A stretch of 32,497 nucleotides of DNA from an uncultured Gemmatimonadota bacterium (GTDB taxonomy: Bacteria; Gemmatimonadota; Gemmatimonadetes; Gemmatimonadales; Gemmatimonadaceae): NCBI GenBank assembly GCA_946478895.1, contig CAMLDY010000021.1:1-32497 (forward strand), written 5' to 3'. Below are positions 21,072-27,722 of the stretch, in pieces (the first letter of the stretch is position 1; every line of letters begins with the position of its first letter). A model generated the notes under the pieces. That model saw only the letters and a program-made list of their open reading frames with translations, made no database searches and was not told where the DNA came from. The translations under genes and the position numbers were made by a program.

Positions 21072-21102
21072 TGATAAGAAATCGACATCTCCTGATAAGA
21101 AA
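21072..21102. promoter_or_regulatory. direct repeat TGATAAGAAA, 21 bp apart (possible operator)
   Basis: TGATAAGAAA occurs at 21072-21081 and 21093-21102. The start-to-start distance of 21 bases is two helical turns, so both copies face the same side of DNA. The similarity goes on weakly to a shared CAT at the end of each 17-base unit. It lies about 95 bases before the JAMM lipoprotein start, a sensible place for an activator or repressor pair. Confidence 0.45.
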
Positions 21103-21194
21103 CAGGCATTTCGTCGCTCTTGCTGGGGCCACAAATTGGGCTGCGACCTCGCCGCGCATGGCTGGGCGCGAAACCTCCCCACTGCGGAGCTGCG

Positions 21195-22682
21195 ATGAAT
21201 GGATTCCTGCGCAATTGTCTCCGATTGCTGGCCCTTACTTCGTTGGCAACGGCTTGCCACGAGATCGAGTCCCCGCTCGCAAAGCTCAAACCGCCGATAA
21301 GCGCGTTAAGGTCTCAAAGCCCACCTACGCCGCAGGTCTACCATCTCTCATCGGATGCGATGTCATCCGTCGAGCTGGCGAACAATAACTATCTCTATGA
21401 CACGTGGATTGTGGTAAGACCCGATGGACCAACCTTCAATCTCCAGACCTATCCACCGGCGTTGCCCGCGGCCGGCGATTACGGCGCTACTGGGGCTGCG
21501 GGTGGACGCAACGGCTGCGACTTAAACTCGATGGTTGCTTTCGGAATGACTACGAGTGGGTTCGGGGCGTGTGGTAGCGGAGGGGTTGGGGGGAATGACA
21601 CAACTTTAGCGCGTGGTCAGGGGTTTCTAAAACAGGGGTCATTTCCTCTGGATTTTGCGACGCCGGACAATAGCGATTGTCCACCGCATACCTCGGGAAG
21701 TTGTCACATCCTCGAGATCGTAGATCGGACTTTTACTGTGTGGCCGATCCCTGTCGTGATGAAGAAAGTAAGGGCAAATCCGCGGACATTTAATTTCAAC
21801 TCCATGCCTCTGGGTTATGTTGATGTCGCTTTTTCTACCGGGGCAGACCCAGATACCGTGATGATCGGCGGTGTGCGAAGAGCGATGCCAATAACTACCA
21901 CGCACTGGGTATACACTGCGGGCGATGGGACGCTAGACGGTAACATGTGTGCCGGAGGGTATCCGATCATCACTTGTATCCCGCACCTTCACAAAGCCGG
22001 CCGGATGGTGGTTAATGCCTTTACCGGAGGATGGGAGCAGTCGTCTACAATTACCGTCCAATGCCTCGTGAGTCCTTCCGACTCGATTCTCAACGATACG
22101 ACGAACGATTTTCAGGTTAGATCAGCTTTGCTGCAAATGCTTGATTCATCGCATCCCGAGGTACCTCCTGGCTTCGGTTACGATTCGGTTAAGGGCAGGG
22201 GTCTAATGCACGAGGTGTCGGGTAATATCTGGAAGCTTCCTGATGGTGGCGGATACATGCTCACGCCGTTCGATAGCCCCGAGAATACCGAATGCCAAAG
22301 TGATGTCGATACCACTTCACCACCACCAGTACCGGGCGCGGTGCTGTTGGGACGGGCGCATACACATCCGAGCCCTTGGAACAAACCAGTATATGGATGT
22401 CCCACAAAGATTATCAACAATGGTCGTGATTCCATACAGTTTTCGCGTTTCCCGGGCGACACTGCCAACGGGAAGAAGCCATTTATAAAGAATCGAAAAG
22501 ATATGCCTCGTGGTGGTAGTGGTCAGGATTGGCTGCGCATGATTTTCGACCTTCCGCCGAAACCCGACTACGTCATGGATGCCGACGGCACCGTTGCGGA
22601 GGTTTCATACTTTACGATGGTAAATCCAAGGATTCGCAATTGGGCGCCAAGCACGGCGTCACGCTGCGCCTGGGTTAGATGA
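21195..22682 (+). CDS. lipoprotein with Ig-like region and C-terminal JAMM/JAB-type metallopeptidase signature
   Basis: A 495-residue exported protein that I cannot assign to a named family as a whole. The start at 21195 has GGAG seven bases upstream. Residues 1-21 form a signal with lipobox LATAC (Cys21). A glycine-rich stretch spans about 95-135. About 178-290 reads like an Ig-type fold (TFTVWPIPVVMKK, THWVYTAGDGTLDGNMC, C-I-P-H-L-H-K-A-G-R-M-V-V-N-A-F-T-G-G-W, TITVQCL). The C-terminal 165 residues carry a JAMM pattern: Glu340 (HEVSGNIWKLPDGGGYMLTP), His389-x-His391-Pro (LLGRAHTHPS), and Ser442-x-x-Asp445 (GGSGQDW). They end in PDYVMDADGTVAEVSYF, as in DUF4329-like JAB domains, though with a longer HxH-to-Ser gap (about 50 residues). 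JAMM enzymes are zinc isopeptidases or peptidases. Its stop overlaps ATG 22679 (ATGA), and codon use is less GC-biased than in the neighbours. Confidence 0.75.
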   Translation: MNGFLRNCLRLLALTSLATACHEIESPLAKLKPPISALRSQSPPTPQVYHLSSDAMSSVELANNNYLYDTWIVVRPDGPTFNLQTYPPALPAAGDYGATGAAGGRNGCDLNSMVAFGMTTSGFGACGSGGVGGNDTTLARGQGFLKQGSFPLDFATPDNSDCPPHTSGSCHILEIVDRTFTVWPIPVVMKKVRANPRTFNFNSMPLGYVDVAFSTGADPDTVMIGGVRRAMPITTTHWVYTAGDGTLDGNMCAGGYPIITCIPHLHKAGRMVVNAFTGGWEQSSTITVQCLVSPSDSILNDTTNDFQVRSALLQMLDSSHPEVPPGFGYDSVKGRGLMHEVSGNIWKLPDGGGYMLTPFDSPENTECQSDVDTTSPPPVPGAVLLGRAHTHPSPWNKPVYGCPTKIINNGRDSIQFSRFPGDTANGKKPFIKNRKDMPRGGSGQDWLRMIFDLPPKPDYVMDADGTVAEVSYFTMVNPRIRNWAPSTASRCAWVR

Positions 22683-22693
22683 CAGCAGTAATA

Positions 22694-22699
22694 AGGAGG
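22694..22699 (+). promoter_or_regulatory. Shine-Dalgarno AGGAGG deciding the start at 22706
   Basis: A complete AGGAGG (in AAGGAGGA, 22693-22700) lies six bases before GTG at 22706. This is the ideal distance and much stronger than anything before the ATG at 22679. It is the best ribosome binding site I saw in the window. Confidence 0.75.
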
Positions 22700-22705
22700 A
22701 AATTC

Positions 22706-23146
22706 GTGAGAATTCTTAAGGAACTCGGTGTGCTCTCGATTGTGTTCACGCTGGCCCTCGTTGGGAGAGCGCAGGCACAGGGCTACACCTGCAAGTCAAG
22801 TGACTTTTTCAGCGACATGATGATACGGCAGGTCAACGGGTCCATAGCGGACACCGCTTCTCGGAGTGCATTAGGTCTGCCCAACGTCCCTCCTGCGCAA
22901 GTTACGCTTGCGGCGGACGCAGCTTTTTGTAACAGAGCAGTTCTTGCGCTGGACACGCTTGCCCACTCGCAGCATCCAACGGAGCCGATGCCTTCTCCGG
23001 GGAGTGGCGGTTACTACGTACTCAAGGTCGGGACGTATACCGGCGTCGCCGTTCCAGATACTACAGCAACGGGGCCGCGCACAAGTTACGCTCCGCTATT
23101 TCTTTTTGATTCTCTTTGGAAGTTCGTCAGCATAATAGGCCTGTAA
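22706..23146 (+). CDS. small exported protein paired with the JAMM lipoprotein
   Basis: A 146-residue protein from GTG at 22706 (an ATG at 22679 in the same frame overlaps the upstream stop and adds nine residues). It begins with a basic n-region and a hydrophobic core (about 8-20) and a probable signal peptidase I site after AQA (22-24). The mature part would thus start QGYTC. Two cysteines (29 and one in AAFCNRAV near 75) could form a disulfide. No known domain is recognised. The mature region is rich in Ala, Pro, Ser and Thr, with a Y-Y-V-L-K-V-G-T-Y-T-G-V strand and a hydrophobic C-terminal F-V-S-I-I-G-L. Its lower-GC codon use matches the JAMM gene. It could be a substrate, inhibitor or partner of that protein. 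Confidence 0.7.
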   Translation: MRILKELGVLSIVFTLALVGRAQAQGYTCKSSDFFSDMMIRQVNGSIADTASRSALGLPNVPPAQVTLAADAAFCNRAVLALDTLAHSQHPTEPMPSPGSGGYYVLKVGTYTGVAVPDTTATGPRTSYAPLFLFDSLWKFVSIIGL

Positions 23147-26109: not shown

Positions 26110-27722
26110 GTCGCGAGGCCTTCGCGGCGGACACGCCGGTTCTTCCAGCCCGTCTTGGTCCGGATCCAGCCCTTGATCGCCCCGATCATCTCCTTGGCGT
26201 CGCCGCCGCGTGCCGTGCTCGTCTCCTTGCCAAGCTTGGTCATCATCCACAGCGCGATGATCGCGAACAGCACATTCGCCATCCACATCGATACCACTGC
26301 GGGCATCATCCCGCGCTTGGCGATCGATTCGCCGGCGATGAGGCAGACGTAGTACAGAGCGAAAACGAACAGACTGACGCCGATGGTGAGACCCACTCCG
26401 CCGCGGGGAAACCGCAGCGCGATCGGCGCGCCGAGCAACACGAACACGAAGCACGCGACGGCGAGCGCGAATTTCTTGTGGATCTCGACTCCGTAGGAAT
26501 TCATCAGTTGCGCGCTGTCAACGAGCCGGATCCGCACCGCCTCGAGCTGCGACAGCTTCGTCGCATCTATCATCTGGCCCGGCACCGGCGCGGCGGGTTC
26601 ACTCCCCGACACGGTCGACGAAGCCGTCGTCGCGGTCGAAGACGCAGTCGACGACGCTGCCGGCTTCGATGTGGCGGTCGTCGATGCCGGCAACCGCGGA
26701 CGGCCAATGGTCACACCCTGGGCATGCGCCTTCTTGGGGAGGACTTTCGGGGCGATCCACGCCAGCGCGTTGCAGTACAACCGCCCGAGCCCGATGTCCC
26801 ACGGCGCGTCGACCTTCACGTTCTGCATTTGCTTGGGCAGTTTCGTCTTCGTCGCCGTGAGCTCGGCTATTGCTCCTCGAAAGGATTTCTCCGCCGACTC
26901 GTGGTCCTTCCGCGCCCGGTCCTGCGCCTCCTGCATCTCGCACACCGTCATCTCGCGGTCGCTTTTGTAGGAATCGGAAGTGGTCTTCTGGAACTGGTTT
27001 CCGACGCCGCGCACTCTGATCAGATCCGTGACGAAGTAGAGACGCTGCAGCTCGTCGGGGTTGGTGGTCGGAACATCCTCCATGTTCCCGTCGTAGAGAG
27101 TGAGCTCGAGATCGGTGAGCCCCTTGCTCAGGTTCATGTTGCCGCTGTCGGCGTAAATGGTTCGCCGACGGGTCGGGTCCGACATATCGTAGATGGTCAC
27201 CTCGCGCATGAGGTTCGTCGCCTCATCGATGTGGCCCGCGCGGAGGTAGAATTTGCCCGGACTGACTTCGTTGATCACCTGCTCGCGCAATCCAAAGGTC
27301 GGCTTTTTCTGCGCGATGTCGCGCTGCAGCACGGCGAGCCGATGATTCGATCGCGGAAGCACCTGATCGTTGAAGCCGATCATTACTATTGTCACGCCCA
27401 ACGCCGCCCACAGAACGGGCTTGAGCACACTCACCAGGCTGACGCCGCTCGCCTTGAGCGCTGTAATCTCGTTTTCCGCGGCCAACCGGCTGAAAGCGTA
27501 GAGGGTCGCGACCAGCACCGCCATCGGCAGGGTCAACGCCACCGTCAGCGGGATCGACAGCCCAAAGAACTCGGCGATCACGAAGGACGGCAGCCCCTTC
27601 CCAACCAGCTCGCCAAAGTGCTTGCCGATGTACTGCAACAGCAGTATCGAAGTGAGCGCCGTCAGGGCGAAGGTGAGCGGCCCCAGATGTTCCTTTAGAA
27701 CGTAGCGGTGCAGTATCTTCAC
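26106..27722 (-). CDS. lptF: LptF-like lipopolysaccharide export permease with long periplasmic insertion
   Basis: A 538-residue YjgP/YjgQ-family protein, against about 360-400 for classical LptF. GTG at 27722 gives the family start (KILHRYVLKEHLGPLTFALT). Conserved elements are LAAENEITALKASGVSLVSVL (80-100), the periplasmic beta region (about 145-245), and the C-terminal FVLLGAPIALRFPRGGVGLTIGVS (427-450). Between about 262 and 400 is an insertion with a charged helical part (EAQDRARKDHESAEKSFRGA). It also holds a low-complexity Ala/Ser/Thr/Pro linker (346-378). The last 40 residues form a basic cytoplasmic tail. It heads the operon lptF-lptG-mlaE-mlaD and starts only about 15 bases from the divergent SprA-like gene. 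Longer frames to 27782 enter that gene. Confidence 0.9.
   Translation of the reverse strand: MKILHRYVLKEHLGPLTFALTALTSILLLQYIGKHFGELVGKGLPSFVIAEFFGLSIPLTVALTLPMAVLVATLYAFSRLAAENEITALKASGVSLVSVLKPVLWAALGVTIVMIGFNDQVLPRSNHRLAVLQRDIAQKKPTFGLREQVINEVSPGKFYLRAGHIDEATNLMREVTIYDMSDPTRRRTIYADSGNMNLSKGLTDLELTLYDGNMEDVPTTNPDELQRLYFVTDLIRVRGVGNQFQKTTSDSYKSDREMTVCEMQEAQDRARKDHESAEKSFRGAIAELTATKTKLPKQMQNVKVDAPWDIGLGRLYCNALAWIAPKVLPKKAHAQGVTIGRPRLPASTTATSKPAASSTASSTATTASSTVSGSEPAAPVPGQMIDATKLSQLEAVRIRLVDSAQLMNSYGVEIHKKFALAVACFVFVLLGAPIALRFPRGGVGLTIGVSLFVFALYYVCLIAGESIAKRGMMPAVVSMWMANVLFAIIALWMMTKLGKETSTARGGDAKEMIGAIKGWIRTKTGWKNRRVRREGLAT

Follow-up and report, generated by a model that had tools for sequence, protein, structure and literature searches.

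A modular lipoprotein with a JAMM-type domain and a small exported partner in Gemmatimonadota: a possible envelope effector and its inhibitor

What would a JAMM-type enzyme cut outside the cytoplasm? The question is raised by two adjacent genes, here called A and B, at positions 21195-23146 of contig CAMLDY010000021.1 (assembly GCA_946478895.1) from an uncultured Gemmatimonadaceae bacterium; the window, meaning the whole stretch of DNA analyzed, comprises 32,497 nucleotides. It gains interest if A represents a family of lipoproteins whose JAMM domain is diversifying, as seems to be so, since this phylum has been little studied from that angle. In the passage concerned, a 2012 survey called the prokaryotic JAB domains then known intracellular, the exceptions being toxin modules and some secreted viral versions (PMC3482391). 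A reading made from the letters alone (the sequence-only reading) had proposed that A is a surface lipoprotein coupled to a small exported protein, which might be its immunity protein or its substrate. Sequence and structure prediction give good support for an extracytoplasmic domain of JAMM type, and we favor, tentatively and somewhat short of even confidence, the view that A is a lipoprotein-borne JAMM effector of envelope competition and B a periplasmic inhibitor or immunity protein.

The N-terminus of A, MNGFLRNCLRLLALTSLATAC, fits a lipoprotein signal as judged by the lipobox pattern, and the cysteine predicted to be lipidated is, by eye, Cys in 12/12 rows that reach its column, of 17 aligned, which bears out the lipobox proposed earlier. 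The Ig-like middle that had been read from the letters was likewise recovered in the structural model. The features of A are as follows.

21195..22682, + strand: gene for protein A, an intact open reading frame (ORF) from ATG 21195 to TGA 22682, 495 amino acids
21186..21189, + strand: GGAG, likely ribosome-binding site of A, 5 nt ahead of ATG 21195
21243..21257, + strand: lipobox L-A-T-A-C, residues 17-21, with the predicted lipidated Cys21
21330..21749, + strand: N-terminal beta-sandwich of the model, residues 46-185, weakly LecA-lectin-like
21753..22067, + strand: Ig-like domain by model and alignment, residues 187-291, with invariant Cys290 at its end
22071..22649, + strand: JAMM-like domain, residues 293-485
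22212..22214, + strand: Glu340, predicted catalytic base, invariant in 17/17 rows
22359..22367, + strand: His389-Thr390-His391, predicted zinc ligands, both His invariant in 17/17 rows
22518..22529, + strand: Ser442-x-x-Asp445, predicted helix cap and third zinc ligand, Asp445 in 17/17 rows

The JAMM assignment is carried by the agreement between predicted fold and conserved residues. All five residues named in the sequence-only reading lie where it had placed them; four are invariant, and with His339 they form a set (H339, E340, H389, H391, D445) common to 17/17 rows, at most 16 of which are independent, as P0019 is apparently a fragment of P0006. The fifth, Ser442, is Ser in 11/17 rows and Asp in 6/17. 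Four positions picked from the 204 domain columns would all land among the 14 invariant ones with a probability of 1.4e-5, or about 7e-5, calculated by hand, with Ser442 scored as a miss. The model contains helix 443-451, and is weak around Glu340 (block 331-340, mean predicted local distance difference test score, pLDDT, 58). Of the 50 matches listed for it, the eight that fall on residues 293-485, ranks 1-3 included, are all Rpn11-type or COP9-signalosome chains, whose identities, such as CSN5, we take from the entry titles. A check set beforehand, namely whether a JAB fold would be predicted with its residues not scattered, came out, as far as it went, in favor of the domain, the predicted fold and the invariant E, HxH and D being in agreement. 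A itself found no match in Pfam or NCBIfam at E <= 10, and the 17-row family none in NCBIfam (E <= 10) or PADLOC (E <= 1) and weak rows only in PHROGs (best E 0.024). Two further details of the domain may be recorded. Cys290 (22062-22064) and Cys491 (22665-22667), both invariant in 17/17 rows, flank it and may form a disulfide clasp; and within the insert between HxH and SxxD, at residues 420-422 (22452-22460), Pro420 is invariant and position 422 is acidic (Asp in 14 and Glu in 3 of the 17 rows).

How this domain is distributed over its carriers bears on what it might be for. A search of about 5.8 billion proteins, with scoring of the 7989 candidates that had most words in common, returned at least 17 rows including A itself (P0001); the three relatives with a named organism are metagenome-assembled genomes of Gemmatimonadota or Gemmatimonadaceae. 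No relative of A occurred in the species genomes or viral contigs scanned, plasmids searched by tblastn held none of A or of B, and a Gemmatirosa plasmid of 1.1 Mb searched with a profile yielded none. Single-linkage clustering sorts the JAMM parts into five types at a threshold of 45% identity and into nine at 60%; between types, the identity of the JAMM domains is mostly 20-38%. At 60% the carrier parts of 15/17 rows, of which three are fragments, make up a single cluster that excludes P0009 and P0010; these two divergent carriers, about 32% identical, nonetheless bear the JAMM type of the window. A and P0010 share 75% identity in the JAMM part and 32% in the carrier, and conversely P0012 and P0014 share 80% in the carrier and 27% in the JAMM part. 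The best cut points lie at residue 269 (A/P0010), 287 (A/P0009), 286 (P0004/P0009) and 293 (both P0012/P0014 and P0011/P0015), with later and vaguer ones at 324 (P0006/P0007) and 341 (A/P0006), and would place a domain-swap boundary within the Ig-like domain or just beyond it. Among 16 rows (P0019 dropped), pairwise identities correlate strongly between the N-terminal and Ig-like domains (r 0.88) and between the two halves of the JAMM domain (r 0.90), and not between the Ig-like and JAMM domains (r -0.03). On these sequence comparisons the A family looks mosaic, its C-terminal domain having apparently been exchanged between carriers, and such mosaic C-termini lend indirect support to the earlier suggestion that A and B are toxin and immunity protein.

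Several results limit the case for exchange. When P0009 and P0010 are left out, the correlation of Ig-like with JAMM domain rises to 0.53, equal to that of N-terminal with Ig-like domain (0.53; N-terminal with JAMM, 0.26), so the signal comes mostly from two rows. A tree test did not reject one topology (approximately unbiased, AU, p 0.27), and the JAMM tree, computed without P0019 (the carrier tree lacked P0017-P0019), joins P0009 with P0010 (74/71, not starred), which leaves the branching free of conflict and the distances alone discordant. We therefore rejected topology as proof of swapping, since the trees gave no support, and argue from distances and cut points. P0009 and P0010 come from different sources, one being a cluster of 25 contigs, which makes a single assembly error unlikely.

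The second gene begins shortly after the first.

22694..22699, + strand: AGGAGG, ribosome-binding site of B, 6 nt ahead of GTG 22706
22706..23146, + strand: protein B, 146 amino acids, exported, start GTG 22706; candidate inhibitor or immunity protein of A

The sequence-only reading had given B an AGGAGG, a length of 146 residues and an ATGA overlap with A. The first two hold for the start at GTG 22706, and the overlap belongs instead to ATG 22679, which would yield a 155-residue version. As 8/11 relatives begin at the GTG position (13-row alignment, the window's own cluster omitted), the arrangement is best described as a 23-nt gap after the stop of A together with a strong ribosome-binding site. 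By eye, B carries a type I signal peptide ending in AQA, its first mature Cys is residue 38 and it is without a lipobox; Tyr36, Cys38 and Cys84 (155-residue numbering) are invariant in 13/13 rows, a count that includes the window's protein twice. A profile search scoring the 7998 candidates that shared most words returned at least 24 rows including the window's own cluster, the remaining 23 being 48-72% identical to B. The model, a helix followed by four strands, had no confident structural match. B had no match in Pfam, and its 13-row family brought up three weak Pfam matches, each by a single member (best E 0.13); an NCBIfam match to a beta-lactamase exception model was set aside as chance (16.1 of 850 bits).

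Whether the two genes travel together, as the sequence-only reading would expect, was judged from contigs of equal size, a weak key under which even A and B of the window go unpaired (P0001, 3 contigs, longest 7,341 bases; P0020, 9 contigs, longest 8,980). Among the 17 A rows and 24 B rows the single match was that of P0004 to P0022 (3026 bases; both jgi). One further lineage is thereby matched, and on several long contigs one of the two families was detected and the other was not: by this weak key, the longest contig of P0010 (179,163) has no B row of matching size, and those of P0021 (11,840), P0023 (6,196) and P0039 (8,225) have no matching A row, all of which hints against coupling. In such cases a pair could go unnoticed because the partner has diverged or the contig ends. 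Coupling of A and B has some support in two lineages, one of them through contigs of equal size, with counter-hints. Base composition offers a separate indication: GC content at third codon positions (GC3) is 0.56 in A and 0.585 in B, below all 16 other intervals measured (two ORFs of no assigned identity have 0.595 and 0.615, and the other 14 lie at 0.69-0.84). The low values suggest that 21195-23146 was acquired as a unit.

Taken together, the predicted lipoprotein signal and domain layout, the modeled JAMM fold with its E, HxH and D, the carrier/JAMM discordance and the low-GC3 pair are consistent with the following sequence of events. A constant 'escort', formed by the beta-sandwich and the Ig-like domain of a lipid-anchored and outward-facing A, would present a C-terminal zinc hydrolase of JAMM type, which may have diversified and been exchanged between carriers and might be transferred to a neighbor. 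B, secreted to the periplasm, would bind and inhibit the JAMM domain, and producer and kin would be spared. A would probably hydrolyze an envelope target at a peptide or isopeptide bond; given the export of both enzyme and partner, it would more likely act by hydrolysis outside the cytoplasm. The broadest form of the proposal appears unlikely in its entirety: that Gemmatimonadota possess in the modular lipoprotein JAMM metalloprotease an envelope-acting weapon, with interchangeable carriers and B as secreted inhibitor, which would amount to a polymorphic lipoprotein toxin system outside myxobacteria, directed at an extracytoplasmic target and not at ubiquitin-like proteins or nucleic acid.

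More prosaic functions must be weighed against an effector and its inhibitor. A may be a conventional peptidase, a surface lipoprotein whose substrates are food proteins or the envelope of its own cell, with a JAMM part that evolves fast for reasons of substrate; B would then be either a small periplasmic protein in its own right or a regulator of the activity of A. We regard this as a serious contender, if a somewhat doubtful one: JAMM is the sole C-terminal fold in 17/17 rows, most A and B rows lack a contig of equal size, and the discordance fades once P0009 and P0010 are removed, but exchange accounts better than mere rate for one JAMM type on three carriers and for two pairs whose identity changes sharply at residue 293.

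Two other readings are less probable. The JAMM-like domain might be a non-catalytic binding module, an adhesin or phage decoy under diversifying selection, which would suit the Asp found at position 442 in some relatives, the 50 residues (392-441) that separate HxH from SxxD, and an N-terminal domain that is weakly lectin-like; it is nevertheless improbable, given that E, HxH and D are invariant in every row despite low overall identity. That B is the substrate of A, clipped or conjugated as JAMM enzymes trim ubiquitin-like tails, had also been suggested, and gains from the adjacency of the genes and from a C-terminus of -GL or -GM in 12/13 B rows. The last residues of the B model, however, form a strand (149-154) and offer no free tail, and its order of elements (b-a-a-b-a-b-b-b-b) is not that of a beta-grasp fold, so that a substrate role is very improbable.

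Outside the two coding regions, one upstream element deserves mention.

21072..21109, + strand: tandem two-copy element, TGATAAGAAATCGACAT and TGATAAGAAACAGGCAT, 21 bp spacing, 85 bases ahead of the A ATG

Its pattern has 2 matches at <=3 mismatches against 0.02 expected, one of them by construction, as the first copy was the source of the pattern; an operator or a repeat element is possible. The N-terminal extension of P0008 reads VIRNRHF, and the window copies translate as IRNRHL and IRNRHF, which suggests similar DNA upstream of P0008 as well. In viral contigs the element recurred in seven stretches, with no link to A visible in the 60-base flanks inspected; a DUF4329 search matched nothing in those seven viral records nor in 14 control genomes, a result that carries no weight. 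The neighbors of the pair are a CarboxypepD-regulatory/outer-membrane-barrel protein, a ferric-reductase-like protein, MlaD/MlaE, LptF/LptG and a SprA-like protein. Upstream of the SprA-like gene lies an ORF of 406 residues (26478-27698; GC3 0.595) without a Pfam match, possibly not a genuine gene as framed here. Rfam had no match in the window.

Several known systems offer partial parallels. To the JAMM/MPN+ proteins (Rpn11, CSN5 and the archaeal Rpn11 homologue) A is linked by the predicted fold of residues 293-485 and by E, HxH and D; it differs in being exported with a lipoprotein signal, in not keeping the Ser family-wide, and in its 50-residue spacing between HxH and SxxD, which in JAMM/MPN+ is about 7 residues. 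With DUF4329/Tox-JAB-2 A itself shares E, H[ST]H, S and D (the middle residue of HxH is, by eye, Thr in 8/17 family rows) and a C-terminal JAB domain, but the Pfam model of DUF4329 does not match A and is matched weakly by 2/17 rows (E 0.0021 and 0.0075, one row apparently a fragment of the other), below the curated cut-off (18.5 and 16.7 against 28.6 bits), and Pfam finds no RHS, PAAR or similar carrier at A.

A search of literature on Gemmatimonadota polymorphic toxins or immunity proteins, Tox-JAB, Imm65 and JAMM/JAB lipoproteins gave no description of the A family by title or opening abstract. In the parts of the 2012 survey on these domains, JAB domains are warheads of polymorphic toxins that come with immunity genes, in two clades, one of which has the lipobox-bearing Imm65 with its motif YxC (PMC3482391). 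Tox-JAB-2 is there accompanied by Imm-NTF2-2 (PMC3482391), whereas the partner of A is exported and lacks a Pfam match. Tox-JAB-1/Imm65 of Bacteroidetes resembles the present pair in joining a JAB warhead to an exported partner with Y-x-C, matched in B by Tyr36-x-Cys38, a three-residue motif and thus weak evidence; it differs in having NxxxE where A has Gly336, in the RHS repeats, of which Pfam finds none in A, and in the lipobox of Imm65, absent from B. As to mode of action, the same passages propose a nuclease activity for toxin JAB domains (PMC3482391), and a list in another report gives Salmonella Rhs proteins with DUF4329 as RNases (PMC10469887). The SitA proteins of myxobacteria are, in the sections concerned, lipoprotein toxins with escort and toxin domains, of which three families keep one toxin fold while their alleles vary (PMC5562445, PMC8546572). 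As SitA toxins are anchored outside and yet act in the cytoplasm of the target, A might, less probably, act as a nuclease. A shares with them a predicted lipobox, an apparently constant N-terminal escort, an apparently variable C-terminal enzyme and a small downstream gene, a likeness of layout; its warhead is JAMM where those of SitA are typically nucleases, and its three named relatives are Gemmatimonadota where SitA comes from myxobacteria. In layout, then, A resembles SitA, DUF4329 and Tox-JAB, yet is not assigned to any of them.
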